The translations under genes and the position numbers were made by a program. The notes beneath the pieces were generated by a model that worked only from the letters and a program-made list of their open reading frames with translations, was not told where the DNA came from and searched no databases. A stretch of 64,000 nt of DNA from Phalacrocorax aristotelis (Eukaryota; Chordata; Aves; Suliformes; Phalacrocoracidae). Positions 13,601-52,493 of this stretch are shown here, in pieces (within the stretch, counting starts at the first letter, position 1; the number at the start of each line of letters is the position of its first letter). Location of the stretch: assembly GCF_949628215.1 (NCBI RefSeq), contig NC_134282.1, positions 19,510,723 through 19,574,722 on the forward strand, read 5' to 3'.

Positions 13601-16600
13601 AAGAATTCAAAGTCAAGAAGTCAAGAATACAAAGTCAAAGAATTTCATACTGCTACACACCTATGGGAGAAATCTTCATTAAAGACTTCTTTTAATCTTC
13701 CCATGACATCTTTTTCACAGAGTGGAACTAAACTGCCATATTTCTTCATAACTTCATCTAGGAATCCTTTAAATATACCAGAAAAATGAAAGTGCAAACA
13801 TGTAAAAAATCCTCTGAGTTCACTAGTCCAATAAAGCAGTAATTTCTTCCAAGTATGAGCAGCAATCACTCTGCACCCAACCAACACACAGCACCACACG
13901 TGGCAAGTATATATTTAAGAAAACTAAGTGCAAATTAGCAACGTTAAATAAAAGAGGGGAAGGAAGACAGAAATAAAAAAGTGGGAATCTGATAACTCAG
14001 CTTTACAGGGAAAGACCAGACCCCATTCTTCCCACGTACACATATATCTACATCAAACTAGTTACGAGGAGAATCCACCCCACTGCTTATCTCAATTAGT
14101 ATCTTAAATTATTTTACGGCAACATGAAAAGTCATCAGTTTCTGCAATAGTTTTCACTGAAAACCCAGTATCTTACAGTACGCAGAATGACTCTCCTCAG
14201 ATGTAAGCAGCCCTGGCTGGCAGAGTGTTTGCAGTCTGTTCAGCTCCTCTGCTGCCACCATAGCAAATGGGAGAGACACCAGACAGACTCTCAGCAAGTT
14301 TAACTCATTTACCCTAGTAGACTAGGGATGGCATTTAAGGTGCCACGGACAGCCATGTCAGCCTGCCATTGCCTGGGCAACCACAACACCAGAAACAAAA
14401 GATATTAACTAGGAAATAATGAAGAAATGAATGCTGGAGGAATTAAAAAAACCTAGGAAATAAATTTCCGCCCCCCCACAGACACAAGACTGGAACAGTG
14501 GAGAAGTAAATCCCACTGAAGCATCCAAAACCACTTTAAGAATGAAAGAGAATGGAAAATAGGATTTCAACACTTGCTAGTGAATAAGAGAAAAAAGACC
14601 AAGTTGTCCAGCTTTCTGAAAATGAGTTTTCAAATGCAGCAGAAAACATGTGTTCTGTGTAATGAAAGCTGGATCTGAGATCAGAGTCCAGGGAATGTGC
14701 ACTAACACAAACTCCAGGACTCATCCCAGCCTGGGTGTGATGGCAGATGGTATCACTGGACAGTGCACTGTATATTTAGCTCTCTGCTTACTAAGGCTTT
14801 AACAGTATTTCCTGGAAACTTTCAAAGATCAGGATAGGAAGAAGCAAGACGAGAGAAACATCCGACAGAAAAAAGTGCCAGAACAGCAGCAGTAAGAAAA
14901 GAATAAAAAAGAAGAAGGGAGAAGGACCGAGAACAAAAGACAGAGAGACAAGAAAAGCAGTGAAGATATAGCAAGAACACCTGGATGTATAACAGAAGGA
15001 AGGGAGGATTGAAGAGCGAAATCAGACAACAAGGAAGAATTCTTCACGGGAAGATATCCTTCCTTGCAACTCTGCCATACACTTGCCTAATAACTTTTGT
15101 CCCTTACATCTCACTAGACTGTGACAGAGGATATTTCTCACTCTGGCTAGAAGTCTAGAAAGAAGATATATGGGGATGTCTGTACTTTATTCTTTTTTAA
15201 CATATACCATTTTTAAAGTTTTTTATTCACACGCACAGAGGAAGGATTGTCCCTGTGGTTACAGCTAACAGTCGCAGAGGTCCAAGAGACCTCTAGCTAG
15301 ACTCTGACCTCACTCGGGCTGGTGTAACTGCTTAACTCGAGGAAAATAGAGTTCAGACCTGGTGTGAGATCAGACACCCACTGCGAACAGGATTTACCAT
15401 GGAGCTCTGTTTGACACCTAATAGCACATCCGAATGTACTAAATATTGCAGCCCATTAACATCAGAGTTCAGCTGCTACAGAGAAATTCAAAACCTGAGG
15501 GCATCCGTAACACTTACATCTCCTTCACGCATTCTCCCTAGCAACTCTTGCCAGGTTAGCAGTATCTTTTAGGGTGCAGTTAATTATTAACAACACTCCT
15601 AAACAGACAAGAACTTCTGTGCTTAGTTATACCAAAATTAAAATTCTTTTTTACAGCTTTTCAGCTGAGAAAACTCAGAAGTGCTACAGTATGAGTGTGT
15701 ATGTAGTGTAGACATGGCTTCAATCCTCAGAGAAGAACCCTCAACTCTGAAGAAAGTGGAAACTGGTCTCATCTACTTTCATTGAGGAGCTAGGTAAGAA
15801 TTCTCTTAAAATTGTGACGTGTGGGAGTTTAGTGCATTTGCTGTCTGTCTTTTTAAATTTATTTTTTTTAAGTTATTCAGGCCGCCCATGAACAAGAACA
15901 CGAATGCCCATCAGACCACAAACCTTTAGCTTTTGCCACCCTGATACAATCTTGGTTCTTGACTGTTAAAGAAGGATTACATCCCTTTTTCTGCTGGACA
16001 AACTTTAAAACTCCATTGCAGAAGTGGTCTCTGTGGTTCACTGTGGTACCACAGTATCTCTCAACTTCTCACGTAGCGCCTGGTCCTTGCTGGATCACAC
16101 AAAGCAAGTTGTAGGTAAACACATCGCACACTAACTGGTGGGTGTGGAAAGCTAAATCATCTTTTGAGGTTCAATGTCTCCTTCATGTTTTGCTTTAGAG
16201 AATGAATTGCAAAACTGAAGGACAAAGGTAGGCAGAAAAACCAGAGCGTGTCAAACTTCAAACAGTCCCCTTAATATTGGTTGAGACCAGCTTCAGGTTT
16301 ATGGGAATCTATGAAGCTAATTTCTCCAAAGGAAGACTGCAGTTATCAGAACACCACTGAACTTGAATATTATATTAATGGTACTAGGTGGCACAACATG
16401 TTAGCTTACTGCCTCTTACTATGTGTATATCATGCTGCTATTCATAAGACACCGATTACTATTTTTATGATGTTCCTCTTTAGAGACTATCAAATACCAC
16501 ATGCTCAGCACTGAGTAAAAAAAAAAAATCCAAAAGCCTTTTTGCTGAACCTTTGCTAAGACTAGTCTTGTTTTTTTTTAAAATATTGTCTAATAAGATT

Positions 16601-31051: not shown

Positions 31052-31215
31052 TCTGAGTTGAAGTTACAATGAAGGGGAATGCCCCAACCTGAACTAGGTG
31101 CCACTCCAGCTTGGGAACTGTAATCTCATAGGCGTGGGCATGGTTTGATTTAGGTGTTTCAAGAGATGCATCAGAAGACCAGTACTCACTGTCAGCCTCT
31201 GCTTCAGAGACATCC
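31052..31215 (-). pseudogene. Anosmin relic: fourth FN3 module (tentative)
   Basis: The frame reads VSEAEADSE and, after a variable part, YEITVPKLEWHLVQV, against human VTWAEVTTE and [20 protein letters not shown]. Just upstream in another frame MNG matches human MTG. The similarity is shorter than in the other exons, but it is at the correct position in the colinear series. No clear splice boundary was identified. Confidence 0.4.
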
Positions 31216-32970
31216 ATTCATTCTGTGTCCTTGGCATTTTTAAAAGCTAAGCAGATAGCATCCTAACCACACGGAGGGATGTGAAAGCGTTTAGACACAA
31301 CCTCTGATTCTTTACAGTTCCTAGAGGAGCTACAGAAGAAGCCACACCCCACTGCCAAAAGAGCTAAACCCCTTTAACCTCATCTGTATAATGAGTATCT
31401 TTAAAACAGATGTAAACTCTCATGGTCAAATGAGAGACTCCTGTGCAGGGCTAAGCCCCAGGTGAATAACCAACCTTATTAGCTTGAAGCATCGGTTGCT
31501 TACATTTGAAAGGTTTCCACTGTGGCTGGCCTGTGACTCGTGACTTTAACTTCAAACAAATAAATGTGAAGGTTGAAGCATGTAGCTTACTGCTAATGGC
31601 TGAGACTAAAAAAAGGAAAACGATGTTCATTAAAGGATTCTATATTATCTGTCAGTATACAAAAAACCCCCACAGAAACTTAACCAAACCAAAACCTGTA
31701 CAATGTTACTGGAGTTGTGCTAGTGCCAAGAAACATCAGGGATCCTACTGTACTAAATTTATAGTGGTATTAACTAAAATTGACTATGTAAAAAGGAGAC
31801 ATCCAGTCTGATCTTGCTGCCGGGACTGCTGAAATGAAGAGCAAAGTACATGCTCTCCAGTGGCAAGTCATCCCATCTAAATGAGAAGAGGAATCTCCAG
31901 GTGAAGAAGAAATTCCTTCTCCATCCGTTATGGACACACCCAGACAGCTCCTACAAGTTAAAGCTGAGGGAGATGAATCCTACCTTATGGAGGAACAATT
32001 TCTTCCCTAACTAACTTATCATCAAAGACAATGGAGAGACATCCCAATCCAGACTCAACAGGTCCCAGAGTGGGGATGTGACAGGAGACTGGAGGTGGTA
32101 ACCTCTGGGTCCAGATGATACCATCTAAGGCAGACGTTTGCCCTCATGTACAGCGCAGTCACTGGCAGAGCCCAGCCAACATCTGTAGCCAGACAATCCC
32201 TTTTTTAAAAACAGAATTCCATCTCTCTCCTGCACAATGAATATTTTCTTGCATTATGAAAACATTATGCCTATTGTTTTGAACAAAATCCTGACACATT
32301 CTTATTTGACCTAGTTGAGATTTTTAGTAGTTTCTCGTATTTCTGCATTGCAGTACTGCCAATACATACCTGAAAAAATGATATAAAGATTGGGGGCTCA
32401 TCTTGCTTCAAGAAGGATAACTGTAAATATTTCTGGAGACTGTTATGGATAGTGATACAAATTCTGCACTTACTACTTTTCTCTGGATAGGAGGGAAAGA
32501 TGTTCATTTAAAGCATGTTAGACAGTCATTTTAACTTACATTTCTTGAACACTTATTTGTGGTTGATCACCAGATAATGTGATCTAGAATCTTATAAAAA
32601 TGCTAATTTGGTTGAGATTGGCTTAAGAAGAGACAAGAACTGATCACAGCTAGCTAACATGTTAAATTGGAGTAAAGTTGAATTAACAAACAAGGAGACA
32701 AAACTCAAACCTTTCCAGATTCACCCCAGTGACCTGAAGGCTGAATATCTGCTCGATAAAGATTTTTAAAGTTACTAAACTTCTGGCCATTGAGCAGTTA
32801 TTTATCTGCAGTTCTAGGGGACATTCTTGAGTTTCCCAGATCCTACTAAAACTGAATAAGTATAAATAAATGAAAGAAATAAGCAAATGAAACACTTGCA
32901 TTGAGCTTCTTAGCAAAATACACTAATGGCTAATCATTGTGCAGTCCAAAAGGTGCGCAGCCATAACGTA

Positions 32971-33062
32971 TTTTATAATCTATTAGAGAATATATATTCT
33001 CTAATATAATATTATGTAATATTAATATAGAATATAATAAATATAATAAAATATTAGAGAAA
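32971..33062. repeat. AT-rich block with a perfect 26-base palindrome
   Basis: Positions 32981-33006 (TATTAGAGAATA/TATATTCTCTAATA) are a perfect inverted repeat without spacer. It continues into about 50 bases made almost only of A and T (repeats of AATATTA and ATAATAA), and the arm motif ATTAGAGAA recurs at about 33053. Such a sequence can extrude a cruciform. Confidence 0.85.
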
Positions 33063-36009
33063 GTTCCCATTGCAGTCAAACAAAAACTGTTGTAAGGGAT
33101 TGCTAAACAGACTGCAATTAGTAGTTTGTACATATAGACAAGCTTTAACTAGCTGATGCCTTCAAAATGCAAGTCCAAGTCTCTTTTAAAACTTGTCCCC
33201 TTCACTCTGAAGCTGAATGAGTTGCAGAGCCTCTGGAAGGATAAGGCCTTGACTGCTGGAGTTTTTCAAACTATGCATCCCTTTGATCCTTTCCCAATAT
33301 GCAAAAAATACTAAAATTCTCTCCTGGATTTCATTACACATAAAAAGACATGAAAGTGCAATTTTTCCTTACTCATCAACAACAACCCACCAACCCTAGC
33401 TCCAAGCTAGACCATTCTGGCTACTTCAAAAAATGGTTTTGAAATTTCCGTTTCCAGATTGCCCTGGCAGGTATAACTGTGACTTTGCAAACAGCTACAG
33501 CTGTGTGTGCTAATTGCTTTTCTCTAAATTATTTATGAGACACTTTTGACTGATGAGATTTCTCACAACAGCATGTGCTAACCATTGGCAGTGGGCTCCT
33601 GAACTAGTGGGAACTCCATCACCTGCTGAGGTGCAGAAAAGCCAGCTGTTAGCAGACACTATGTCCCTGGCAGCCTGTTCACTGAACTGTGAGGTCAAGC
33701 TCTATCTACTTTCATCTCCTTTTCCAATAACTGCTCAATAGGAAATTTATGTGTAAGCATTATATCTGCACGTAACACACACCCTTTACTTTTGGGACAA
33801 GATCAGAGAATTCTGGAGACTGCCTAATTTAGATAAGGCAGAATTTAGGGTGTCAATGACCTGTAGAAGACAATCCAGTTCACTAAACAGGGCTGTTCAA
33901 GCTCTGGTCCCAGCTGCAGCAGGGGGTCTGTAAAATACAGTTATGAAAGCTAGAAATCAATAGGCTTAAATTCATGACAAAGGAGGTAGCAGTTTTACTA
34001 GAAAAATTTTACAAGATATATAAACTGAAAAAGAATAGAAAACACGACCACAGACAGTACAAAATATTTATCATGAGCCACCGCTTACCACTGCTTTTTC
34101 CTAGAGGGCTTATCACTGCTATCCAGATAAAAACTACTTAAAAAGCTATGGTTAAAGGTAACCATAAGCCCTGTCAATTAAATAAAAAAACCTAGTGTTC
34201 CAGGGACCAGCAAATTATGTCAGTATTTTTCTTTTCCTTTTTCAGATATGAACAACTGATAGGGAGCAGCAGTCAGAACCAGGGTGGCTAGAAGAAAAAC
34301 TTCATGTCTGGAGTTGCAAGAGCTCAACAAGAAGCAGCCAGATGAATGAAGCAAAGCAGCCTGCTAGAATTACTGCTCACTATTGGTACTTTTATTGTCT
34401 TCCCAGGAGGCTATAAAGGTTTCTGGGTAAGCAACCAATGTGACATCTTCATGAGTTTCACAGCTGTGTTTAAGAACTAAATTTAAACATTATTCCCAGC
34501 CAAACTGTAGATGAAGTTGTGCGTTGGACCTTTTCCTAGGCAGTATTTTTACCCTGCCGATCCCACAAATTTTAAACTATTTGAATTAACCTTGTGCTCG
34601 TTTATTCTACATATGCCAGAAGATTCACAATGTTTTCTGTACCGAAGTCTTGTGACCTCAGATACAGGGGTTCAGACAGGAAAGAGAGGGTGATAAAGAG
34701 GGACCGTGTTACTCCTCAGAGGTAAGCTGGTATTTCAGAGCCAGGTCAGATATACCTGAGCCACTTTTCTCAGTGCATCAAAGATATAACCTGAATTGCT
34801 GTGAGAGGTGTGCAGAGGACAGCACACCATAATCTGGCTGTGCACAAGGTCAGGAGCAGGAAGGCAGGGCAGAACGTGCAATTGTCTTAAGAGTACCCAG
34901 AAGTTTCATTTCTTGACTCCCTTTCTCCCTTGCAGTGGAGGAGGCTCTCTGGCCATGTCCCATTCAGTAGGTGGCACTTGGGAGTTGAAACAAATGTGCC
35001 AGCTTCCAAGCCTGCTGCCTCAAAGAGATGGGCCACATGGACTCCTTGCACTTCCATGAAACAGCAGCCTGGTGTTAAGAAAATGGGTCCCCCACAGAAC
35101 AAGAGGAGGAAGCGGGGAGAAAGCTAGTGTTCCCAGCCACCCATCACAGATGTAAAAGGAGACAGGACAGAAGGTATCTGTCTGGATCTGACACAGACTA
35201 ACAGCATGGCATGGGTAAGGCTAGGAAGTCATTCATGCCTCATTTCTCCCACCTGTAAATTATTCCTCCTCCTTCATCCCCACAGGCACATCATTATGAT
35301 TGCTCAATTAATTAACAGTTTAAAAGAGCTCTGAGACATTCAGATAGAAGAGAAAGATTTTTTTTTATATTTCTGCTTCTCTAAAATTGCATGCATAAAC
35401 ACTGAAGTTTGTAAGTCCTTTGCTGAGGATGAACAATTGTCTCCAGTTTATGGATAGGTAACTTAAGCCATGGAAATGTGAAAGCACACATTTTGATAAA
35501 CATCCTCAAGTTCCAAGATCCCACTTTCTGAGTTCCCAGCTACATATAAATCCAGCTTGACTTTCAGAGAGCTGAGCACTCCTAGTCCTAAACGTGAACA
35601 GCCACAAGTGACAGCATTCACCCACTGAAGACCATGTACTCAAGATCTCAAATCAAGTGTCTCAAAGCTTAGCCCACTCTAGAAAACCTAAATGGAAACT
35701 TGCCCAAGAAAACCTGAATGGAAGCAGTGCACTCGAGTGCTCTGTCCACCACATCACACACAGCACGCTTGTGTTCAGCTAGAGCTTCATGCCATTGAGG
35801 AACCAGAACAGGTGACCAGACTTCTGGAAGCATCTATCACGTGGCTCCCCAGCACAGTGAGTTGTAAATGAAATTGTTAGGGGAGTGAGAGTTTCCCTGA
35901 CCAAAACAATTAAAACTCTCGCATGAAAATAGAATGCTGAAAGGAAATCTGCCCATTCGGCACCATTATTATTTTTAACAGAAGACCCAAGTTCCTGTCA
36001 AAAACAGGA

Positions 36010-36160
36010 GAATAGACATTTCTGAGCCAGCTTTAATGGGAAGATCTTTTGAAATTCTCAGCCATCTGTCACAGTAGGAGTGCTTGTTGTTCAGCCCTTC
36101 TGAAAAACTTGGCCATTCTTTTGGAACATGGTCGTTTTGAAACTCTGCTTTCAGGCCTTT
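36010..36160 (-). pseudogene. Possible anosmin relic: third FN3 module, second half (weak)
   Basis: An open minus-strand frame includes FQNDHVPKEWPSF and, 20 residues on, LRISKDLPIK, which could correspond to human VNRYHVRWFPEA and YIILQDLSFS at similar spacing. An acceptor-like CTGAAAGCAG precedes it. The placement between the FN3-3 and FN3-4 exons is right, but the identity is low and it could be chance. Confidence 0.25.
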
Positions 36161-38422
36161 CCTAGGAACCACATCTTCCGTGGAAGGTTCTGCTCTTTCT
36201 GTGTCTACCAGTACTGTCCTCAGTGCAGTGGAACCTGCCAGTAAAGCAGGTAGAGATGGGCTTGAAGTGCAAACCTGGAAAATTGCTCTGAACTAGCCCT
36301 AAATCCAAGGACAAACGGGTAGGTTAAGTCCAGAACTAACTGTGCTTTCATTTAATGTTGCTTATGAAAAACATTGCAAACATATTTTAGCAAATTTCCA
36401 AATGTGTGTATCTCATGAAAATTGCTCACTGAATACTCCTTTTCACTTAGAAACATTTATTTTCCCCCTCTGATTCTTCCAGTCCTCCCTCTTCCCTCTC
36501 TTACTATTGTTGACATCTTGTCCCAGGTAAAGAAGAGGTAACAAGGGACCCCAGTCACCCAGCAATGGAATGAACTGCTCTTGCTCATAAAAGATTATTA
36601 ACACTGGGACTCCAATTTGGGATGGAAGAGCAGCTTCCAAATAGGCCTCCCTGGGTGTTAATAAGATCTGCTATACAGACAGGAAAATTCTGCAGCAGGT
36701 GAATCATCTCATGCCCTGGGACCAGGCAAACGGAGACAGTATGATGCACAGCACTATATTAAAACAGAAGTATGATCCCACTGTAAACACATCTGGAACC
36801 TGCAACAATTCCCCTTCACAGAAGGATCTGAACTCAGCCCAGCAAACCAGAGCACTAACCTGGACACTTGCCCTTTCTTCTGATACTGGTTTGTTAGAAG
36901 AATATGTTACTGGTCTCCATTTTAATAAATACAGATTATGCTCCTGTGGCTCTCTGGGATAGAGAGAAAAACCGTGTTACTTTCAATGGAGCAAGACCTC
37001 CAACAAATTGGTGAGATATATAAGAATACTTTTTATTTCTAAAGTGGGCCAAGAGGCTTTGAAGTTACATTAATACCTCCAGATAAAGAGCCACACAATC
37101 CCTCCTGCTGCAAAGGAAACCTCAGTGAAATTCTGGCTACAGAAAAATTAACAGCAAAATTCCCACCAGTTTCACTGTGAACGAGACTTCAGGCCATAAA
37201 TCTATTCTGTAGAGGGTTTTCTACCAAATGGTTGAAAATTCTTTTTTTCCAAAGGGGAAAAAAAAGTCAGTTGTTTTATTGTGTTTCCTTTAAAAAGCCA
37301 TAACCAAATGTTTCATTTTAGATTGGGGTCAATCCCAATTAAAAAATTTCCAGTTCCCCCACATGCCTTCATGGAGCAGGGGAGCTGTATTGGCAGACAC
37401 GTTCTGATGCTAAACTGAACAGACACATAAATGCTTGATAATGCCAGGCAATATGTTTTGAACTTTCCATCCCCACAAAACAAAAATTCAGCATATCAAG
37501 GTTCTCCTCCCTCCCCTACTCCCAAGTTTGGACAGAAATACATATTGCAGTATTGCAATTTTTCAAAGATTTTTTAAAAACTATTTAAATTCGTGTCAAC
37601 AATGGCTACCACCTGGCACAGCCCTACCAAAGTTAAGAAGTTACTGTGGAATAATAAAGCATAATTCAGAACAGAATGTGGCCTGAAGAGCTCCATGTCC
37701 CAAAGAGCCCAACAAAACCATCCCCTTGGCTCTGCTTATTCCTTTTGAGGAAGAACCCAGCGGAAGGGAGGCAGTCAGTGTGACTGCCAGTTTTGCAGAG
37801 TCTGTGAAACTCTTGGGAGACGTGACCCCAGTTCTCTGGCTCTTGGATTTCCAACAGAGGACTCAGTTGAAAGTGATCCTCTCCAGGGCCCCAAGATCTT
37901 CACCCTTAACCTTTCTGAGTCATTAAAGAATATTCAGCTCGTCATACAACAAATACAGCAAACTTATTTTTGCTACGGCATAGCAATCTCAGAAGCTACT
38001 GAAACATTTTAAGCTAATGGTCAAGACCTTGTTTCGCAAGGCTGAAGCCCCATGAATTGAACAGAACTTCAGCACTTGCTTAAATTTAAGAACAAGCTGA
38101 AATGCTCGGCTGAATAGGAATAGCCTGAGGAATTATGCAAATGCTTAGATGAATCCGGGTCCAAATATGAATTACTTTAGAAGATAGAGAAGCAAGCGGT
38201 GCAATTTAATCATTTTTATCTCCTTACCAAGAATGCACAAGTTCTTACAGCTAATATTACAGCATCTTCTGCTGCTGCCAGAAGCCAAATGACCTATTCT
38301 TTAACAGTCAAGCTCTCCTCATTTTCAAACTGAAGATTAGTCCATTTATGCTGAACAGTGGCACAGAATGACAATTTCATAATACATAGATTGAGTGCTA
38401 TTCCACTCACATGTTACATTAC

Positions 38423-38572
38423 CTTGCCCTTTCTTCCACTGCACTTCCACTTGCAATTGACTATCATGGTAATAAGGTGGTGCTGCTTCTAATCTCAAAT
38501 TGTATACTTTCTGGGATGCTGACAATTCACTAGATACCGCCACAGAGTGGCCAACCGGATCTGACCTCGAAT
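38423..38572 (-). pseudogene. Anosmin relic: third FN3 module, exon still open
   Basis: Acceptor TTTTTTTGTGTTCAG and donor GGGCAAG/GTAATG are both excellent and the 150-base exon has no stop or shift. It ends EAAPPYYHDSQLQVEVQWKK against human [20 protein letters not shown]. The first half (SDPVGHSVAVSSELSASQ) is in the linker region that is poorly conserved among anosmins. Taken alone it looks like a working exon; it is called a relic because the neighbouring exons are broken. Confidence 0.82.
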
Positions 38573-41500
38573 CTGAACACAAAAAAACCATGGAGATACA
38601 ACTTATTCATATTAACAGTCTGCATTAAAGTTACAATGTGAGCTGGACACTTCCATAAAATGCTGAATAAAATGAACCTTCAGCAATAGCACTCAAAAGG
38701 GCAGCCAGCACCTCCCAGCAGACTACCAGCACCGTCCACAAGTGATCCCATAAACATGAAGGCTGATTGTGAAATGCTTCTACACATGACTGGTCCTTAC
38801 TTCTGCAAATACTCTCACAGGCATGAGCATTTTCAGGGTCAGATCCCACAGCTGTGTTGCTAACAGACAGTGCAGTAAGTGTCAAACACAGATTCCAGTT
38901 TGCCCTCCTTGCAGAAATACCAGTGAATCCTTAATGTAATCTCTGAGAATGTCATAATAGAAAACTAATGCTTTACAGTAGGATATCATGACCCCTCCAC
39001 AAACTAAAGAAAGCCCTTATTTCACTGTGATCTGAGCAGAAAAATGTATGAGAAAGTGGAAAGCAATTAAATTCTGCTACCAAAAAGACTTTTGTTGGTA
39101 AATACAGTGCAACTGCCACAGGAAGTTATATAAAAGAGCTCGCTGAGAAAACATCCCAATTTAGACTGCGCAGCTCCAGGGACTGCTTGCTAACAAAATA
39201 CAGAGTATTTTACTTCTAGGTCACCAGTTTCAATCTGGCCTCAAAGGAGAAAATGACTGAAAGTTAATGCCAGCTGACAGTGGTGTGAAAGCAGTAGGGT
39301 GGATCTCAGCCCACTTCCTAGTAGATTGGAGGACACAACCCAAGTATTTGTGATTTGTGAAAGTAATAAAGCTAAAAATTCAGGCTGTGATTCAACGATA
39401 CATTAAATCCAGCTGTAGGACTCTTAGCACAAGGAGCTGATGTGATATACACAATTCTGCTGATTCCAGCTTGTCTGAAACATTTTGACAAGTTAACTGT
39501 GTACATACAGGTGCTAGGGCAGATCAGATATCATTATGCTTTTTACAGCTGGAAGTAAAATCCAGGTTGTGTGTGCCAACCAGTTCAATAGAAATATAGG
39601 TATGTGCCCATAGCTCATAGAGATCCAGATTGCCTGGTATCAAGGGTCACCACCGTGGCCTCCAAGCTTCATCCGTCAGTGACAGCAGGTGCAGGCTGTG
39701 TAGGAACGGGAACATCAGAACTATATTGTTTTATTGCTGCTGGTCAGTCTCTGGACTGGAGACAAATGAAGATGCTATCTACACCTCTGTCTGCCCTATG
39801 AAAGGGTGGAGGGTGCCAGATGGTTAGCAAGTCACCCAGGACACATAAAGTCACACAGGCATTAAATAGCATAAATAGCGAGGCATTAAATGACACCATC
39901 CCTGCTGGCACCACATCCCTGCTCATCAGTGCTCCATTCATTTAAACACTTTAAAGAGAGCAGGGAAATAGGAGATTAGGGAGATGTGCTGCTGCCTTTG
40001 ATAAGCCTGAAAATAGGAGCAATGTTTGTGTTAATCCTGTAGCAGTAATATAGAAAAGGCACGATTAACTGCAGTGGCAGGAACAGTCTAGTGCAATCTA
40101 TTTTCTCGGTGAATTCCTCTGTGGAAAGATGGGTCACAGGGAACACCTGCAAAATGCATCCAGGCGTTTGTATCTGCACTGTGTCCACAGCCTGTGCTCC
40201 AACAGATGGTTGGCCAAATGATTTCTTCTTCTTTTATTTTATTTTGGCTTTTTTTTTTCCCTGAACACACAGGAGCAGAGCAAGCCCTCCTGCCAACAGT
40301 GTAGAGAATGCGGAGCATCCAGCAATGAATCGGTGACCTTGATTAGTGTCTAATGAGTAGAGACCAGTTGCTTTTCACCACATAATAAAGTAGAAATGCT
40401 GTGGTCTGCCAGAGTTCTTGATGCTGCTCTGAGGAATGCTGTCGTAGATGCTGTCCATACAGTCTCTGCTTTAGGCACCAGTTAATCCTTGGTCCCTTCA
40501 CACATGTGGTATCTCCTGCTTTACTGCCAGATCACTGTTAGAGAAGACTATGTATTTCTCTTTACATAAAATGCTATCTAATCAGCAGCACCAGTGTCAG
40601 GGCAGCTCCACCTGGTTTGTACCTTCAGACAGAAAATGTAGATAGCTTTGATTTAGATTCCTTATTTTATTTCTTATTTCCCTTAGAAATGATTGTATAT
40701 TCTGTAAGTAGTATCTCACCCTCATTGCTGATAGCAATGGAGAGGAATGAGCAGCCCTGTAAATAAGAAAAGAAGAAATTCTGAATCCACTGGTATCAAG
40801 GGGAAATATCTTTGCTGAGTGTTCCCCTTAGAACGCTACACCTTTGGAAAGAAGCCAAAACAGGTTGGATTAGCTAGTGTGAAGGCTTGCAAGATCAACT
40901 GTGGCTTGGAAAGGCAATACCACTATAAAGGTTCTACTGAGAATGGAAAGGGATTAACATGTGCATCAAATGAATCCGTCAAGTCTTGGGACAAGGAAAC
41001 ATGAACAGTATTGGCATCACTTGCTGGTAATAATAATAAAATCAGGCTGATCAGGGGAAAAAGTACCTCTTCACTACATAACAAGAAGCAGTGCTAGCAA
41101 AAAGGCTACAGTCCCACCAACATCCTTATCCATGACTGTAATGCACAGCTATATTTCACTGGAGCTGCAGAGAAAACCACCCCATTCAGGCCACACTACA
41201 CATTAGCAGAGGCCACAGAGGAACAGAAATCATGAACTGGAGGTCACAGGACAGACACAGAATAAAACAGTGAGTTTCCACATTATTTAAAAGCCCAGGG
41301 CACTTGCAGGGCAAAAACTTTCCTTTGGGGAGAGCATAGGGGGAAATCTGCTTTGAAAGGGAGAAAATTCACAGCTTATAAAAAGGAGGATGGGAATCAG
41401 AGATCTGGAAGCCAAATGCACAGAGGGTTTGCACTCTGCATGCAGGGGGACGAGTGTTACAAATGGGAGGATAGATTTTGTGGTCTTTGGAGGTTTCTAA

Positions 41501-42600
41501 ACCCATAATGCTACAGCCTGCACTTCCATAAGGTACTCTGTGTTAAGCCTGAGCTCCCTCTCTTCCATTTCAGATTTTACCTGGAAAGGAAAAGGTTAAG
41601 CTGTTAGCATTAAAAAAGAAGTTAAAATATTTTTAATTTTAAGAAGAAGAAACTTCTTTATAGCTGCATAATCAGTTAAAACTTGCCTGTGGTGTTATGT
41701 CCGTGTGCTAGGTTTCCTTAGGGATCCATCTGCATCTGCATAATAATCTATTTTAATTGTATGATGCCATAGGGTATATGATACTGTATGGACAAGTAAA
41801 ACGGCAAGGAGATGAAGGTGAGGCAGAAAATAGAGCTACCACATTTCCATCAGCAAAAATGACTGTTGCACGCAGTCATGTGCATGGGATAGGGAAGGGA
41901 CAGTCATTTGAAATAAGTTTCTTCAGTCCTTCAAGTCCCCAAAATAAATTTCTTCAATCCCTGTCTTCAATCCAGATTCTCTCTCTTCTGTCCCACATCT
42001 CAGACCCAGTATCATTTCCTGCTCCGGACTGTAACAACACTCTTCAAGCCAGGACTTCTATCTTCTCCAGACTATGATGCCAAGGCTCTGCCATTTCAGA
42101 AGCCCCCACCTCACAGCAAACCCCTCCTATCGTAACCCAGGATCTCACCGTTTCTCCAAACCCTCTGTTATCATTTATACATATATAATCATCAACATTA
42201 TCTATACAAATGAGATCAGGAACTTTTGGGATCAGAAAAATCCCAGATCACTCTTTTCCCTACCCTGAAAATGTTCCTGTTTCTAACCTAATTTTCAGTC
42301 AAGTAGATCCCAATTGCATGGAGGTGATGTAAAGAACCAGGCTTTTTCACATCAACCACAGCAGAAGGACCTCCAGGAGAAAGTTAGAGAAAGATCAGGG
42401 GAATACGGCCTGTCCACAGTCAGATCCCTGAGCAGCACATGCTATTTATAATACCAAGCCAGAGTCATGACTGCATCTCTTCCTGACAGATGCATCCTTT
42501 CTCTTCTCTTGCTTTTTTTCTGTCAGCAACTTTTGTACTCTCCCAGCACCTCTCCAGAGACCAACAAAGACAGTGGTAGGTGCAGTGGCAGCATACATAC

Positions 42601-42782
42601 GTTAGCCATTTTCCAGTGGTCTTTCTTTGCTGCTCTGGCCCCCATAGGCTTGTGCAGATTTTGTAATGATGGATTCTTGGGTCTCTTTCTGGAGATGAAT
42701 CCCAGCAAATGACACCGCCAAAGGAGGCATGGGGTGAAGCTGTCCCACCTGAGACTCTTAGGGGCACCAGGAGGTGAAGGAT
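42601..42782 (-). pseudogene. Anosmin relic: second FN3 module
   Basis: Acceptor GTTTTTCCGGTAG. The first frame reads DPSPPGAPKSLR against human DPSAPPAPANLR. After a deletion of 11 bases relative to human the next frame reads VICWDSSPERDPRIHHYKI against human TIVWDLPEEPDIPVHHYKV, then RKTTGK against RKTTDG. A donor-like AAC/GTATGT closes it. The conserved Trp and the HHYK strand are typical of FN3 modules. Confidence 0.82.
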
Positions 42783-45700
42783 CTACCGGAAAAACAGACC
42801 AAGGCAAGGGAAGAGTTTGCAAAAATGAAAATAACTCCAGCAGAAAGACAGCTAGTGACATGACTAAACCAAAACAGCTGCCAAGCAGCTCATCTTTCCA
42901 AGGTTTGGTTCTGTCAGCGTAGCACGTCCTACCACTGTAAGTCAGTTCACTAATATCTGGATTTGTAACTTTAGAGGTTCTGTTACAGCTTGAGACAGGC
43001 TTGGGCGGAAAGGTGTTCCCAAACCTGGAACAGCATGGGCTTAAACTTAGGTACAGACTGAGACTGTCTAAGCTTTGACTCCTGAGCACACTTGAACTTT
43101 GTTGTAAATATAAGACAGAAGTTGCGCAGGGCAGAACTAAGCAGTTTGATAAAAATATATTATGGGTCACTTACAATTTTGTAAAGAATTATTTAATGCT
43201 ACCAAGGTGAAAAGATGATCCTGCAAAAGGGTAAAATATATTAAGCAGGGAAAACAGTGCTAACATGCTCCATAAAGAAAATACTCAGTGCAATTACCAA
43301 CAGACAGGATATGGATAAGCAGTTTTCAAGAGGAAAGCCCCTCTATCTCATTAAACAGCTGCTTTGCTCCTGCTTTTTTTCCCTGTTCAACTCTTCACCT
43401 TTAATCTGCAATACTCGGCTATGCTGCACACACCAAGAATGCAAAGCTGACAAGCAGAGGAGGGCCTCCCTTATCAGCTCAGGATAAAAGCAACAGATTG
43501 AAAGGATGGACTGTCTATGATTTTTCATTACAGACTGGTAGATACCTTATGCCTGTCGCAGACAGGCTGAAGATTAGGAGACCTGAAGATTCATTTATCT
43601 TTAAAGATTTGGAGGAACGTTGGTAAAAAATAACAGGTGAACTTCCACATAGGAAAGAAAAAAGTGTGGTGGTGTTCACACCACCAAGCTGTCCGATAGC
43701 GCAGGGCTGTTGCTGCCGCGTGGCAGGAGCTGGGTCAGCCTGGGGATGCCATTGCTCTTCCTAACAGAGGACAGAGCACTGTCAGTGCTGGCTGATGATA
43801 AGGGGAAGATACAGATCAATGAGTCCTCTCTCCCCAGAGGGATGCCAAAAAAGGGCATCTGTAGGTATAAAGTCTGCAGTAATACACCACCAAGGGAAGT
43901 TTCCTCCTAATCTCAGTGATTGCCTTATGGCCTGTAGAAAGACCTTTTCCATTTTTCCTGAGGACAGCAGGTAACATCAGAACACTGCTGAGACATTGCG
44001 GCAGGCTTATGTCTGCAAGAGGAGCACAGAGACTCCCAGGCCTGCACTCGTCCTTGCTGTATGAATAAAGCTCCTGACTACAGTAAAGACAGCTTGGTCA
44101 GGGCCTTCCTTATCCTTCCCTCCCTGCTGTGATCACAGAGAGCTCCCGCTCCGGCCCTCTGATGTGTTGGCAGCCTCTATAATTTAGAGTAGCTGTGATT
44201 TATGGCTTGTACAAAGACCATACTTAAGGAATACAAAGGTAGGGCTGGCCTGACCAGTATAGCTGTGTAGTTGCTGGCCCTTTGTATTGATCAAATGAGT
44301 GACGGAAGTGAAGAATTCAATTGCATTTGCTGTCTGCAAGGATCAGCTGAGGGACAGAGAGCTGGGGGGGCGGCGGGGATTTAATTACCCCTCACACCCA
44401 GCACCGGCAGCCAAAAGTGTGATGATGACACTGTGTATTGATGGGGGGAATCGCTCTCAGCCACGTCCCTTTGTACCTCCTCTCTCAGTGAAGAAGGAAA
44501 CAGAAAAAAGAATGAGTAAATTTTCTGAATGCTTCCTCCTGCATTAATCACATACCATATCCTTCCATACCTCATCTAGTCTCTAGGGGAATGTCACAGG
44601 CACTGGAACAAGAGAAATGAAGGGAAGTTTATAGTTGCCTAAATCTAAGAGAGAGAGGTGTTTGTGGCACGCAGCATGTTGCAGCTCCCACTATAAATTC
44701 ATGGGCAGATTTCCAACAAGTAATAGGGAGCTGAATCCAAACATACTACTCAGTGAAAGGCTTGAGCAACCTTTAATCAGACTCCTAATTGGTCTTTCCC
44801 TCTGTTTCACCATTTATCATTTGAGGAAACCAACAGCAGTTCCCAAATGAGCTTTTTTTAAGGTAAAATTGAGGACATAATCAGGTCTTTTAGAAAAGGG
44901 ACAGTTCTAAATTCAGTCATAAATATTTGATACTATTGTCTGCCAAATTTAGTAAATGGTTTTAGTGGGGACCTGTATTTATCAAATTACCACCTTCAAG
45001 ACAAATGCTTATGGGGAATGCAATTACGCTCAGTCTGCTTAGACCTTATTCTGCTAATGAGGGCATGCCCCATCTTTTCCAAAACAGCACTTCTAAAACA
45101 ATGGTCCAATTTTAAATTACAGCCACGGCTGCCTTGTACTGACTGAATAGCTGTCATTTAGATTCCTCCTATCAACTCCGAATTCCCTTTCATCTAGGGT
45201 CTGTCTTATGTGATGGCAGCCCAGAGCAGTGACCTATGACTATGCTTGACTTCTTATCTCATGACATGTGGACTAACTTACAAATGTGGGTAATTAGTTA
45301 AAGATGTTCCATGACAAATTAGACTAATGGAATTGTAATGGTTAAATTAACATCTTGAGGTCAGTTTTAAGGTCCCTTGTTAGGGTTGATAGTTCAAAAT
45401 GCAAGCTGTCAGACTCTGGGAAGTATCTTGTTTCTTTTAATAAAAGTGCTTCTTTTGCATGTGAAAAACCAAGGACTTAACTGCTGAGATAGGGCCTGAT
45501 CCAAGGGAAACAATCTGGTTGGCAGTTTCTGGATAAGGCAGTCTCTCCAGTCCTGCCCCCAAACTTTGTCCTGTAGGCAAGATACACAGTGGAGCAGAGC
45601 AGCAACCATGAAGAAGGATCAAAGCACACAGCTTTGCACTGCTATGAACACTAATCTCTCACTCTCCCCTTGCACCTTTCAACTGAAAATTTCATCTGAC

Positions 45701-45849
45701 ATCTTTCTTCAGGGAGGAAGTTAATTTTGCAAAATCAAACAGTCCAACATAAATTAAACAGATAAATCATGTCCTGTTATCCACATCCTTCCTCCAGGAG
45801 GAGCCTGCAAGGCTCTCCCTGTAGGCTTTTCTAACAATAAAGCTGCTTG

Positions 45850-46270
45850 TTAACTCTCGCACAATGCTAAGGACAAATGGGAAAGGAAGAGACAACAAAA
45901 TGGAAAACATCATTCTGCAATTTTGTCAATCCCTGGTGTGCCAATGTCTTGAGCACTGCATGCAATTCTGGTCACGCCATCTCAAAAAGGTACTGTAGAG
46001 TGAAGAGAGGCAGCGAGAACATCAGAGGTACCAAATAGCTTTTATAGCTGAAGAGACTTCATAGACAAAAACTCACTCACTTATCAAACAGACAGCTGAA
46101 CTTGGAGGTGATTGAGCTATTTAACATGGAGTGGGATGGAGAAAGCAAACAGGGAATAATTACTCTTTGCTTCTTATAACTAAAAGGAAATACTTTTTAC
46201 ACAATGGTAGTTGAATGTGGAGGTCACTGATGTAGAGTCCACAGGAATGAGTGTGTTCAAAAAAATCAGA
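45850..46270 (+). mobile_element. Ancient CR1/L3-like LINE fragment
   Basis: The plus strand holds degenerate phrases of the CR1/L3 reverse-transcriptase C-terminus: CCAATGTCTTGAGCACTGCATGCAATTCTGGTCACG corresponds to the CxxEHCMQFWS(R/P)H block, followed by CATCTCAAAAAGG (HLKK) as in old amniote copies. Further on, GAGGTCACTGATGTAGAG and similar wording match the tail region only loosely. Frames are fully degraded. Confidence 0.5.
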
Positions 46271-47059
46271 TAAATTCATGGGAATCCACCATCAGCCACT
46301 ATATACAGCAGTTCAGATACAGCCTGGAGCTCAGAATTGCTTCCATATAGAGCCCCAGAAGCTGGAAAGACGTATCAGAAAAAGGACTCTTGTCTGGGTG
46401 CCCCCATTTATGCTCTTTTCTTATCCTTCCAATACTGCAGTCTCTGAGACAGGACACCAGGATGGACAGGGCTTTGTCCTGACTCGACAGGGCCACTATT
46501 ATCACCTGATCTTGGGTGTCTCCTCCTTGCAGACAACTAATTAGTCACAGATAAGCTTAAGTCCGCTTCCCTTCAAAGGCGGCCCTGACCCCTTATGGCC
46601 ATCTAAAGGAACAGTTTGCTTTTCAGAGAACTGTCTCCTGCCCCGGGTTCTAGCGGTGATGAGGGGTAGGGGTACTTATGTGTAAGTACATGTACATACA
46701 CATGTGACTGGAAATGAGATGGGTTCCCTAATCACACAGCCTCCATTTCTAACTCCGAGAACATGCTTTGATCTTTCCTTTACCAACATAAACACAGAGC
46801 AGAGTACATGCTTAGACAGACATTCCCTGCTGAAACAAGCTGCACTACTCCCTGCCCAGACAGAGAACAAGACAGCGAATGACACAAGACAGCTGTTAGC
46901 TATGTTGCTGAATCCATGCTCTTTGGATATAATGGCATAAAGCACAGTGCAAGGACCTCTACAGAACAGAAAGGGTAATGTGGGTTTCTGTGTTCAGGTA
47001 TCGTTCCAGAGCCAGTGCAGGCAGCTCTAGCAGGCACAGCACCCTCCACTGCTGTTTAC

Positions 47060-47204
47060 TTCTTGAAACAGATCAGTCTATTAAGTTCACCTTTAAAAAA
47101 AAAAATCCGTGGAAAAAGAATGGAGCCTACTATGATTTGGTACCGTCTGCTTGATCTTCTGCCTTTTAGGCAAATACTGTCCTCCTCAGTTCCACAAAAG
47201 TCAG
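47060..47204 (-). pseudogene. Anosmin relic: first FN3 module, second half
   Basis: The frame reads TEEDSICLKGRRSSRRYQII against human [20 protein letters not shown], an ungapped alignment over 20 positions with SR-YQ shared. A run of 11 T follows, and continuation (FHGF against VHGTRGF; SVSRS against HFRSS) needs a change of frame. Donor CAAGAA/GTAAAC. The acceptor is less certain: CTCATACAG at 47205 is the nearest. Confidence 0.6.
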
Positions 47205-48865
47205 CTGTATGAGATGGAGACCACTGTGTCTCAGAGTCCAGCCACGGCGTGCCCTCTTGTGGCACTACCCACATGTGGCCTTGCACCTCGCTGAATCTTG
47301 GGTCAGCCCTGTGACAGACTTTTCTCATGGTCGTGTCTCCCTCCTGGGGAATCTACATACCCAGGAAAAACACTCTCCTTTAGATACTTCACAGGACAGC
47401 AGAGTGTGCACTTTTCCCTACATTTCATGAGTTCTAGTAGGTGAGGGAATAGGAGGTGGCATGGTCCCATGGGCAGTGCATTGTCAACCTGAAGTACAGA
47501 TGAAACCAATCAACTCCAGTTCCACTTGGGAGCCATGGTGCTGGAGTTCCTGATATGGCAGGTTACACAGTCAGCTCTGAGGCTTCCAAAGAATCAGCCA
47601 AAATGGTAATGTCATTGCTTCTCTCCCAACCTGTGGAGGCGACAACTCAAAGGGAAGACTGAAGGCACCCAGTCAGTACCCAGCAGGAACAGCCAGGGAT
47701 GGGGAGGTTCCTTCCACTTTCTCCCAGCGTACATGTGGAGAGCAATAAGTCAGACCTTTGTGCTTAAAAGGAACATTTAAATTATCAGATGAACATAAAA
47801 GGAAATACTACAGTTATTACATTTTTATTCAGGGCAAAACCTGCAGGAATGGAGAACTTAGGTATTTAATATGGATGTAAGATAGCAGTTGTAAGATGAC
47901 AGAAGGAATAAGCCAAGACAAACAAACATCCACTCAGTGGCTTGAATTTCTGTATCTTTCATTTCCCTTATTCCTGGCATATGTCATTCATAACTTTTTC
48001 ATATATGTATCAGGACAAAATGACAGCTAAAAATGCAATAATTTTCCTACACAGACAAACCCAGGATTTGAAAGCCCATAAATAGAACCATGCAGAATTC
48101 ATCACATTGTGCATCCTTGTACTCTTTTTATATCAGTTCATATATGTGAAATAGTAACAAGTAGTAAACATTAAAATATAAAATGAGAATCTCGTTATTA
48201 CTACACTGCAGTTCTTGTTCTTTATGTGAGAGCTTTTAGCATTAATAGCTAGAGGAGCATATACACAAGTCACACTGAGTTTTGAGAGAACTAATTAAGT
48301 TCTGCTGGTTTCCATTACAGAGATAGGACTATTTGGACCTTGAACATAAGACAGAAAGAAGTGAATAATGGTTTATCTTTAACATAAGGAAGAGAAAAGA
48401 CTTCCCATTAGTGGAATGGTAGCAGCTGTTAACTCTGTAGAGCATATATAAGTTAGTTTGAAAAGTCTGTAGGTAAGGGAGATATTTCAGCCTCAAGTAT
48501 CCTCATAAGACACTGACATACTTAGGCTGTATTTTGCAACATGTTTGTAAAGTTAATGCTTGACAATTTTCTGTCAGTATTATACAGAAGTGATATAAGT
48601 ATGGTGTTATCAAATAAATTGACATGGAATGCACATCACCAATGGATATAATATAAAAATTCATTTGAAAAGTGGATAATATATCTAATCTAATATCTAT
48701 CCTTAATCTTGCTTGGAGAGAGCCAGAAAGCAAGGCTACCCAAGAGTTTGCCTTTGTTAGAATACTTAATACTAGTAATAAAGGATAATAAACACTTAAT
48801 CTTGTTTGCTTCCACTGCACAAAGGTACAGATATTTCCTAAAATAACATTGGCACAAAGCTAATT

Positions 48866-49080
48866 AGAATCATAGAATCACAGAAATGCTGGTTGGAGGG
48901 GCCCTCTGGAGATCCCCAGCCCAATCTCCCATTCAAAGCAGGACTACTGCCAACACCAGATCTGGTCAACCATGGCTTGGCCTGATGACATCTTAAAACT
49001 ATCCAAAGATGGAGATTTTACAGCCACTTTGGGTGACCTGTTCCAGGGCTACACCACCCTCCTGATGAAGAAATCAAGTA
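48866..49080 (-). mobile_element. CR1 LINE 3' end, old copy
   Basis: Read on the plus strand it begins AGAATCATAGAATCACAGAAATGCTGGTTGGAGGGGCCCTCTGGAGATCC, which is the reverse complement of the CR1 3' tail (GGTCCCTTCCAACC...ATTCTATGATTCT), followed by AAAGCAGGACTACTGCC and the gap-rich end of ORF2. The copy is 5'-truncated at about 49080 and more diverged than the one at 30300, so older. It lies in an intron of the anosmin relic. Confidence 0.85.
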
Positions 49081-49655
49081 CGACAAAGGTTACTAAGACT
49101 TGTAGTGTCTTTTAAAAGACTAATGAAGGTCAACTAAAGTTTGGTCTGATGAAAGAGACTGTCCTGCCCTAAAAGTCTTGTCTCACTGTTAACTCTTACA
49201 GATTGAGTAAAAGCCAATTAGAGAGTAGTATTTAACTGGCCTGTCTCTATTTTACCTCCAAACACTGAATAACATGGAATATTTCAACCTCTCACCAGTG
49301 AATATATCCTCAAAATCATCTTCTGATGGTATGGAAATGTTCTTAGTTATATCTGATGGAAGGAGAGCTGAGGTGAATGGACTGTATATTCAGTTGAATA
49401 GGACATACAAAACAAAGACAGAAATTGAATCCAGATTTCTTATACACTGCTTAACTGAGTTAACCACAAGTTCACTTTATTGGTAGTCAGTCTTCTTTTC
49501 CCACAAGTTACCACAAAGATAAGTTACAAAAGTTTGAAACAACCCTCTGAGGGCAGCATCAGTGATGACAGCATTTGCCAGGATCCAAATTTAGACTCGA
49601 GTTTACTACCTAAGAAAGAGGAACACTTTATAATAGCTACAAGTATGGAGCTCAC

Positions 49656-49829
49656 CAGGATCCCAGTCTGCCACTCTCCAGCTTCATCTTCACTGAGATG
49701 GATCCTGCAGCTCCTCCTGGAGAATGTAAAACACAGTCGCTGACTCCACACACAGTGACTTCAGATTTCTGTAAGATTTCAAAGATGCCACTGGAGTCTT
49801 TAGGAAGGGTTCAATCTTTAAGATGACAC
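49656..49829 (-). pseudogene. Anosmin relic: first FN3 module, first half
   Basis: Acceptor ATTTTTAG, donor ATCCTG/GTGAGC. One frame gives TVFYILQEELQ against human PVIYVVQRRWN; after a five-base length difference another frame gives RIHLSEDEAGEWQT against human GIHPSEDDATHWQT. The donor falls at the same place as in ANOS1 (after WQTVAQ). Frameshift inside an otherwise well-preserved exon. Confidence 0.8.
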
Positions 49830-50466
49830 CTAAAAATGACAAGTGGGTGATGAGAATGAAAATGCAGCAGAAGGGGTGGCAAGAGCAGGGTTCAGTGCAT
49901 ATATTTACACTCCTAAAATGAATCAGTTGGATTGTGTCTTACCTGAAGAGTGAAAGAACAGCCAGGTCTCTGTGCTCATTTCCTATAATTTCATTTCCTA
50001 TCATTGTTGTGCTGCAGCGTCAGCTCATGTAACAGTAGGAACTGACTTCATGGAACAGGGATTTACTCCTGAGAATGGGACAACTCAAGCCCCTGCAGAG
50101 GTGCTGTTCTGTACCTGCAAACCTTCTTTGCATATATCTTGAGAGTGACAGCTGAAAGATGCTGGATCCCATTACTATCTCTAAACACACAGTCCCCTTT
50201 TAGCCAAGATCATGGAGTGCCCTTTTTACTGCAGCAATGTAAACATTTACCAAGAGAAGACAGGGAAATATGATCTGACACAGGAAGATTAAGCTGTATG
50301 GGTTTTTCACAGGAAGCCAAATTCTTTAGCTGTCAGATGGAAGCCACAGAGTGATGCCTATTGTTGCTTAAAGAGTAATTACTTCTGATTGCTTCCGAGT
50401 ACACTAATTTGTCTTGATACAGAATGACAGTATAACCCAGAGCAGTGGTTAACTGCATTACTTTAC

Positions 50467-50684
50467 CTGTGTACAGGTTTTCTGGAATATACCCACACTG
50501 GTTTGAGCAGCATTTCTTTTTGCCAGGACATTGTACATCCACTTTGCAGCTCTGTACCTAGGTAGAAGCAAAACCTGCCACTTCGCCCAGCAAGGGCAGT
50601 GTCCTGGCTTAGTAGTGAGAAGGGGTCTCAGAAACTCATGGCTGGTCAGGCTTGGGGCTGGCTCCACAGACAGCAGCAGCATTA
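50467..50684 (-). pseudogene. Anosmin relic: WAP domain exon with stop and frameshift
   Basis: Acceptor CTTGTTTTTCAG, donor TACACAG/GTAAAG. The first frame reads APSLTSHEFLRPLLTTKPGHCP against human [21 protein letters not shown]. After a one-base loss the frame continues GFAST, then TAG, then VQSCKVDVQCPGKKKCCSNQCGY against human [29 protein letters not shown] (comparison given in short parts: [23 protein letters not shown]). The TAG at 50558-50560 stands exactly where the human Cys codon is. The end IPENLYTG matches VPKTLYKG, with the last WAP cysteine deleted. The diagnostic KKCCSN-CG core makes this the most convincing exon. Confidence 0.85.
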
Positions 50685-52389
50685 CTGAAAAACAAGGCAG
50701 AGGAGAGTAAAACCAGCCAATTTCTAGAAAGGAACAACTAAACTGAATGGATGAATGAAGAATGGTAGGACTGCAAGTGCCAATTTTCTAATCTGCTCTT
50801 GTTCTCTTATATTCTTATATACATTACATATGGTACTACCTTAATCCATTCATACACTTAAGAAAAGCCTTTTGCTAATTTCGTCCAAAGGAATTATTTC
50901 AGTAGTTCAAGGGAGGCAGGAATAGAGAGGTAGGGAAAACTTGCTACTTCACAAAATTGTTGGAAGTATCAGAGTACATCCTGGACCCCAGCGTAAGTCC
51001 TTTCCGTCAGGGATTATTCTGCTATGTCACTATTTTACATGCTGTTGCAGGGCAGGAGGAACCTCTGGACTAATCACAGAATCCTGCTTTGTCAATGCTT
51101 TTCATCTGTGAGCAGTCGAAGAAGGAAAACTTGGAAATTTTGAAAACTGAAAGCTGAACAAAACATTCAGGTTAGGTCACTCAGGGTGTTTTGTTGTCAT
51201 TCTTTTAAACATTTTGTTTCTATTTTCATTTTTTCATTTAAATTTTCTCATCTCCATTTTCTTAAAACTTCAAAGTAGAAGGTGACTTCAGTTGAAATAA
51301 AAATATAAAGATTTCAGGTTAAAAATGTCAAAACATTCTTTCATGCACATTCTGAAAAAGCAGTTCCATGCCTTGGCTGAGTTAGAAGAATGGTGGAAAA
51401 AGGATCATGGTTTATGAATCATTTGAATTTTGACAAAATAGATTTTTTCTGAGAGGAAAAATAGCAAAAGAAAAAAGCTCACCAAAGAATTCCTGACTGG
51501 TCTTAAACAAAAGTTCACCTAGGATACCATCGAGTGATACTGCCTATTTGCAGAAAAGAACATTTTTATAGCTATTGACTGTAGTTTATAGTAACTGACT
51601 CTAGTCAGCCAGAAGCTACCTAGGACTTGTAAGTCAAAACCACAGAGCTGTAGTGAGGGGTCACAGAGCTGACCATCATGTTCCCAAATTTCAGCTGTCT
51701 TCCAGAAATCCAGAAGGCAGAGAACAAACATTGCACTAACTGATTTTCCACCCTCCTGGCATCTCTCAGATTCTCCTTATGCCACTTTATAAGCCATAAC
51801 AGCTCCCTGCTGCTATTCACATTTTCTGACACTTTTCTAATAATACTGATCTTAAAATCTCTTCCTTGCAGGGGGTACAGTGAAGGAGTTTCAACACTTG
51901 CTGCAGATTCATTGCAACCTAAGAAAAACAACACTCACCCCACATTACCTCTGCGGTGGTAAAATTATTAATATTTAAGATTTGAGATGTCTGGCTAGTG
52001 AGTGTATCCTAACTAAAAGAACATTCTCTTTGACTAAAAGCTAACAGCCTGTGATTGTTCCCAACTCCCCACTTCTGAGCTAAGATAATACTGGGTGTAC
52101 CACTCCTATATGCTCCACCAAGCACCATCTCTCCATATGGTCACATTATTTACTGTTCGATTCCTTCTTAGAATTGTGGCAGTTAGCAAGCTATTTAAGG
52201 TGTCCCTCTCTCCCAGGTACGGATACCAGTTTTTTTTTTGAAGTGATTGTTTTCTTTGCATTTTTTTTTCTGAAACAGTGCATAGGCTGAGTCTGTGCAA
52301 TCACTTGGCAGAGAACAGGGGAGTAGAGGGGGAGATGCTGTCCAAATGTTCTCTTACTATGATCATAGTTAATAAAGCTTCTGTCTGAC

Positions 52390-52493
52390 CTGTCCAGAAT
52401 TGTACTTGTGTTATCATGCTCTTGGAGTCCCCAGATTCTCCAACACCTTTTACATGGGAGCACATCCCACTGTGCTCTGCCTGGCCATACACA
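52390..52493 (-). pseudogene. Anosmin relic: cysteine-rich box exon
   Basis: Behind a strong acceptor (TTTGTCTCCCTTTACAG) and before a donor (GGACAG/GTCAGA), one frame reads VYGQAEHSGMCSHV then KGVGESGDSKSMITQVQFW. Human anosmin-1 has VWCQNHKQCSKC, then KESGD, then QCQSFC at the same spacing. The ESGD core and the first CS are kept, but the cysteines of WC, SKC, EPC and QC have become Gly, Val or other residues. Loss of paired cysteines would destroy the disulfide fold, which supports decay. Confidence 0.7.

Follow-up and report, generated by a model that had tools for sequence, protein, structure and literature searches.

The 64,000-nucleotide stretch of Phalacrocorax aristotelis contig NC_134282.1 analyzed here (positions 19,510,723 to 19,574,722 of the forward strand; hereafter the window, numbered from its first letter) carries the coding exons of SENP5 on its minus strand and, upstream of them in the same orientation, the fragments of a gene of the anosmin family, to which ANOS1 (KAL1), the Kallmann syndrome gene, also belongs. 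These fragments are homologous to anosmin-1, follow one another in the order of the protein, retain exon edges of ANOS1, have broken reading frames, and are closer to anosmin-1b—encoded by anos1b (kal1b) in fishes, coelacanth, lungfish, and amphibians—than to ANOS1. We regard it as very probable that they are what is left of anos1b, the sister gene of ANOS1, which died in place upstream of SENP5 and persists as a unitary (unprocessed) pseudogene. Anosmin-1 is a secreted guidance protein linked to heparan sulphate and FGFR1; judging by homology, the working ancestor of the remnant would have encoded a secreted matrix protein composed of a cysteine (Cys) box, a WAP domain, and four FN3 domains.

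Extent and state of the anosmin remnant

When 19 anosmin-1 queries are compared with the window by tblastn, the WAP region at ~50.6 kb on the minus strand is the top-scoring place for all of them (smallest E value 8.95e-12). Two further minus-strand places recur among the 120 matches listed, one at 38.4-38.6 kb (19/19 queries) and one at 42.6-42.8 kb (17/19); both are colinear with the protein, with E values of single matches ranging from 2e-5 to ~0.3. Pfam recognizes a WAP domain (E 1.3e-5) in one of three minus frames and no family, FN3 included, in the remaining minus frames scanned; the FN3 domains are too decayed to be recognized by it. Human anosmin-1 (1zlg) is matched in the PDB at 7.8e-7, and the joined translation of the remnant matches it over the whole length (E 8.5e-38), with elafin as runner-up (1.3e-4). 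An Rfam scan of the window gave 0 matches.

The extent of the remnant was delimited with a frameshift-tolerant profile built from 23 anosmin-1b proteins and scored on both strands and on 24 shuffles. Seven minus-strand segments (scores 89.1-163.7; Table 1) surpass the maxima of all 24 shuffles (46.2-66.2), and in transcription order they begin at residues 100, 130, 265, 338, 382, 434, and 467 of the protein. The chained score above threshold, to which only matches better than every shuffle contribute, is 403.7, as compared with 57.1 on the opposite strand and at most 76.5 in the shuffles. When a profile of 34 ANOS1-type proteins, likewise frameshift-tolerant, is used instead, the gene's top four minus-strand matches score 162.9, 78.0, 77.0, and 62.6, and unrelated matches reach 60.6 on the minus and 53.1 on the plus strand. 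Two additional minus-strand matches to the 1b profile, a WAP-like one at 40285-39992 (63.1) and an FN3-4-like one at 23056-22897 (61.8), are out of place and, falling below the best shuffle (66.2), are regarded as noise; the latter also lies beyond the CpG island of SENP5.

Table 1. Fragments of the anosmin gene and the neighboring gene. Residues are those of anosmin-1b; a slash marks an exon edge.
Feature	Position	Strand	Content	1b-profile segment (score)	Frame damage	Acceptor	Donor
Exon 4	50467..50684	-	end of Cys box and WAP; residues 100-164	50649-50465 (163.7)	1 frameshift, 1 stop	possibly TTTTTCAG, immediately upstream	ACAG/GTAAAG, intact
Exon 5	49656..49829	-	FN3-1 first part; residues 162-222	49899-49665 (98.0)	3 frameshifts	TTTTTAG/, intact	CTG/GTGAGC, intact
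Exon 7	42601..42782	-	FN3-2 first part; residues 265-333	42793-42610 (133.3)	3 frameshifts	CCGGTAG/, present	AAC/GTATGT, present
Exon 8	41455..41580	-	FN3-2 second part; residues 338-379	41580-41455 (98.9)	0 frameshifts, 1 stop	TTTCCTTTCCAG/, intact	not identified
Exon 9	38423..38572	-	linker and FN3-3 start; residues 382-431	38576-38317 (145.4)	frame open	GTGTTCAG/, intact	CAAG/GTAATG, intact
Exon 10	36860..36953	-	FN3-3 middle; residues 434-466	36957-36860 (89.1)	1 frameshift	TATCCCAG/, present	CCAG/GTTAGT, present
Exon 11	34920..35091	-	FN3-3 end; residues 467-524	35091-34920 (108.7)	4 frameshifts	none recognizable	none recognizable
Probably exon 13 (weaker evidence)	31506..31578	-	probable FN3-4 end; residues 609-636	31578-31506 (51.7)	1 frameshift		
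SENP5	4508..18710	-	coding exons (tblastn); neighbor downstream, same orientation				

Upon realignment, exon 5 scores 94.7 with 30 of 57 residues identical to Latimeria 1b, and exon 9 scores 132.0 with 25 of 49 residues identical. The region of the last WAP cysteine has been deleted from exon 4, whose donor occupies the position of human ANOS1 c.541, an edge of intron 4 according to a passage of PMC12154317; the acceptor of exon 8 corresponds to c.1063, an exon edge according to a passage of PMC9976430. Exons 10 and 11 are poorly recovered by the ANOS1 profile (31.0 and 37.6, versus the 1b-profile scores in Table 1). The probable end of FN3-4 scores within the noise of the whole window, but against its own 3.9-kb interval it outscores all 60 shuffles; 12 of its 25 residues are identical. 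For exon 6 (second half of FN3-1), the best match, 40.1 at 47190-47119 on the minus strand, lies in the right interval and is equaled by 4 of 60 shuffles. Targeted scans do not rise above shuffles for exons 1-3 (13/60 as good) or exon 12 (42/60), and a Cys box proposed at 52.49 kb is not confirmed, 43/200 shuffles being as good with the 1b profile and 100/200 with the ANOS1 profile. The end of the box with the WAP domain, the first part of FN3-1, FN3-2, and FN3-3 are thus found in order, the end of FN3-4 is weak, and the main box and the second part of FN3-1 are undetected.

Altogether, 190 of the 389 aligned codons agree in residue with Latimeria 1b; the alignment is disrupted by 13 frameshifts and 2 stops, and 20 of the 64 residues that are invariant in 40 anosmins are altered. 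The segments are dispersed over 19 kb, with acceptors at exons 5, 7, 8, 9, and 10 and donors at exons 4, 5, 7, 9, and 10. The gene therefore combines disabling mutations with introns retained at homologous positions (the c.541 and c.1063 edges), as is characteristic of a unitary pseudogene. Since introns and splice signals are kept while the frames are broken, it represents an unprocessed dead gene; a retrocopy, intronless and bearing poly-A, is ruled out by the intron-separated exons with their splice signals.

The original prediction, made from the letters of this DNA, had envisaged at least six anosmin segments in order on the minus strand, mostly with working splice sites, and an intron-keeping duplicate that died in place rather than a retrocopy, all of which agrees with the seven segments, the splice signals, and the broken frames described here. 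Exon 10 had not been named separately. From the pieces that were named, WAP, the first half of FN3-1, FN3-2, and FN3-3 stand, the box and the second half of FN3-1 do not, and the probable FN3-4 retains the divided standing given above. The interval, originally drawn as 31052..52493, shrinks to a supported span of ~31506-50684 on the minus strand with the loss of its box end at 52493.

Affiliation with anosmin-1b

Compared with 5.8 billion proteins, the joined translation has six matches at E<=1 among the 608 word-sharing candidates scored, all of them anosmin-1b or anosmin-1-like: coelacanth (best, 7.2e-53), two manta rays, and three chimaera entries. A search with the coelacanth protein returns 1b-type relatives from cartilaginous and ray-finned fishes (sharks, rays, chimaera, sturgeon, bichir, gar, bowfin, and teleosts, Danio included) as well as from lungfish, newt, axolotl, and two frogs. 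Of its 633 matches, the best 120 (a few of them nameless) include no amniote named as 1b, and every named amniote there had already been seen as an ANOS1 relative. Anosmin-1b, for which public annotation already has a gene name, has the same parts as the remnant in the same order, the highest identity to it, and the same diagnostic residues; whereas these relatives are annotated as full-length or nearly so, the remnant is frameshifted, contains stops, and has lost several exons. ANOS1 is likewise homologous along the length and has both the c.541 and the c.1063 edges in common with the remnant. In contrast to an orthologue, however, the remnant is only 34-39% identical to ANOS1 and is its paralogue, the split predating the divergence of jawed vertebrates.

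Profile scores and diagnostic residues point in the same direction. The 1b profile clearly outscores the ANOS1 profile in six of eight intervals and ties with it in two, the WAP exon and the 31.5-kb piece. At 24 sites separating 1a from 1b under a 70% rule, the remnant agrees with 1b at 17, with 1a at 2, and with neither at 5; under an 80% rule (14 sites), the figures are 11, 1, and 2. As controls, a left-out salamander 1b gives 14:0 in favor of 1b, a frog 1b 12:1 with 8 sites of neither type, and a bird ANOS1 0:13. Identity of the remnant to Ambystoma and Latimeria 1b is 47-48% over ~395 columns, as opposed to 34-35% for three bird ANOS1 proteins.

The main tree (41 rows, 398 columns) was computed from an alignment guided by a 50:50 1b/ANOS1 profile, which replaced single-family guides because each of these pulls the remnant row toward itself. 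In this tree, 1b proteins and the remnant are split from 23 ANOS1 proteins at 100/100. When the remnant is made to join bird ANOS1, the log-likelihood falls by 82.8, and an approximately unbiased (AU) test rejects this placement (p 9.15e-6). By database matches, profiles, diagnostic sites, and tree, anosmin-1b and not ANOS1 is the nearest relative of the remnant. The original prediction had proposed an early vertebrate duplicate outside ANOS1, with anosmin as best match as a check and a grouping with bird ANOS1 as the result that would speak against it; the check turned out in its favor and the grouping is rejected, with one placement on the ANOS1 stem, considered below, remaining. Cartilaginous fishes (sharks, chimaera) stand on both sides of the 1a/1b split, at 100/100, indicating that the duplication is older than the living jawed vertebrates; it would have come from the whole-genome duplications. 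Within 1b, the frog proteins have a long stem branch (0.75 changes per column), next to slow-evolving salamander ones, a possible sign that selection was relaxed or had changed ahead of any loss.

Alternative explanations

Several observations weigh against assigning the remnant to anosmin-1b or against its being dead. Its grouping with amphibian 1b, represented by four proteins, is not firm (84/91), and its branch is long (1.2) and flagged as such. A 1b-guided alignment again places it beside the amphibians, an ANOS1-guided alignment puts it on the stem that separates 1a from 1b, and the AU test does not reject a position beside the whole ANOS1 clade (p 0.269). The protein search may have left ANOS1 proteins unscored. 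Its two stops are fewer than those in similarly scoring simulations of decay (4.0-5.6), and the first large exon of the adjacent SENP5 is also frame-broken, so that some frameshifts of the remnant could be assembly errors. The stem position and the p value of 0.269 are what would be expected of a third anosmin ohnologue, distinct from both ANOS1 and anos1b, that descends from a '1c' stem lineage and survives as this remnant only. We consider such an origin unlikely, given that the diagnostic sites are strongly of the 1b type, that the tree from the neutral alignment puts the remnant inside 1b beside amphibians, and that no intact third type was noticed among the database matches listed. If the lineage's own ANOS1 had been duplicated later, with the copy inserting here and then decaying, this would account for the two intervals in which both profiles score equally, but such an origin is contradicted by the AU test, by the lower identity to bird ANOS1, and by the 17-to-2 division of diagnostic sites, and we give it hardly any credence.

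A living anosmin-1b whose frames merely appear broken through assembly indels would be compatible with the small number of in-frame stops, the sound state of exon 9 and of most splice sites, and the fact that the presumably functional SENP5 changes frame twice in its first large exon. It is nevertheless very improbable: 13 frameshifts fall within ~1.17 kb, exons 1-3, 6, and 12 are undetected, the splice sites of exon 11 are degraded, and nearly a third of the invariant residues are altered. The 13 frameshifts in 389 codons and the missing exons cannot all be assembly errors. Another gene with WAP and FN3 domains could also have left such a remnant, for example UMODL1 (olfactorin), which has this combination in common with anosmin and for which an anosmin-like activity is reported in a passage of PMC8874799. 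UMODL1, not scored separately, gave no match in the protein-database or PDB searches of the remnant, the matches being exclusively of the anosmin-1b type in the former and led by anosmin-1 in the latter, and the exons agree with ANOS1 in order and edges; its involvement is extremely improbable. The unitary pseudogene of anosmin-1b thus accounts best for the locus. On this explanation, anos1b would have arisen by duplication before the living jawed vertebrates diverged and been located upstream of SENP5, oriented alike; in this lineage it would have ceased to function and decayed in situ, leaving fragments of exons 4, 5, 7-11, and probably 13, with exons 1-3, 6, and 12 gone or unrecognizable. 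By position, the remnant would be the direct orthologue of anos1b, and it most likely makes no product.

Neighborhood, time of loss, and implications

The position upstream of SENP5, as originally predicted, is confirmed by eight catalytic and N-terminal exon blocks of this gene that lie in order (tblastn with a human SENP5 query). A GC-rich island at 24-26 kb is probably the SENP5 promoter. The first large coding exon of SENP5 (17031-18722, minus) is divided between two frames (open reading frames 18722-18330, 18463-18077, and 18125-17031), the later exons being clean; either small assembly indels are responsible or the exon is really disturbed. Between SENP5 and the remnant, a 195-residue open frame on the plus strand (30274-30861) resembles the C-terminal part of a CR1-type long interspersed nuclear element. 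PAK2, for which a C-terminal piece was queried, and NCBP2 have no match in the window at E<=1. In humans, 3q29 has the order PAK2-SENP5-NCBP2 and would share an ancient paralogon with parts of the X.

The time of death was approached by simulating neutral decay from a salamander 1b (8 runs per step, indels at 1/10 of substitutions). The score (872) and identity (0.49) of the remnant are reached at ~0.15-0.2 changes per site. Avian neutral rates are 1-2e-9 per year. With these assumed rates and a slow-evolving ancestor, the gene would have died, very roughly, ~80-200 million years ago. As this is younger than the origin of amniotes, separate losses within amniotes are likely.

No account of an anos1b remnant, or of the loss of anos1b in amniotes, was found in the open-licence PMC literature. 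Depletion of kal1a/b in zebrafish leads to Kallmann-like defects according to a passage of PMC3876029, and kal1a and kal1b are called co-orthologues of KAL1 in a passage of zebrafish work on Kallmann syndrome (PMC4642522). This co-orthology is contradicted by the tree, in which the two separate before cartilaginous and bony fishes diverge. It follows that kal1b has a history of its own and that its human counterpart is missing rather than being ANOS1. A broader proposal, for and against which we see the chances as even, is that anos1b, an ohnologue of ANOS1 dating from the genome duplications of early vertebrates, originally resided in the stretch upstream of SENP5, that it persisted beyond the emergence of amniotes and was lost late and independently in their various lines, and that zebrafish kal1b is the living form of a gene lost in humans instead of a teleost-specific co-orthologue of KAL1. 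With a located and dated amniote remnant, the loss becomes testable with respect to its timing, a takeover of its roles by ANOS1, and changes in the olfactory and gonadotropin-releasing hormone (GnRH) systems, and SENP5 provides a landmark for seeking anos1b remnants in other genomes, those of mammals included. If the broader proposal is true, remnants or even working copies of anos1b would be expected in other reptiles.

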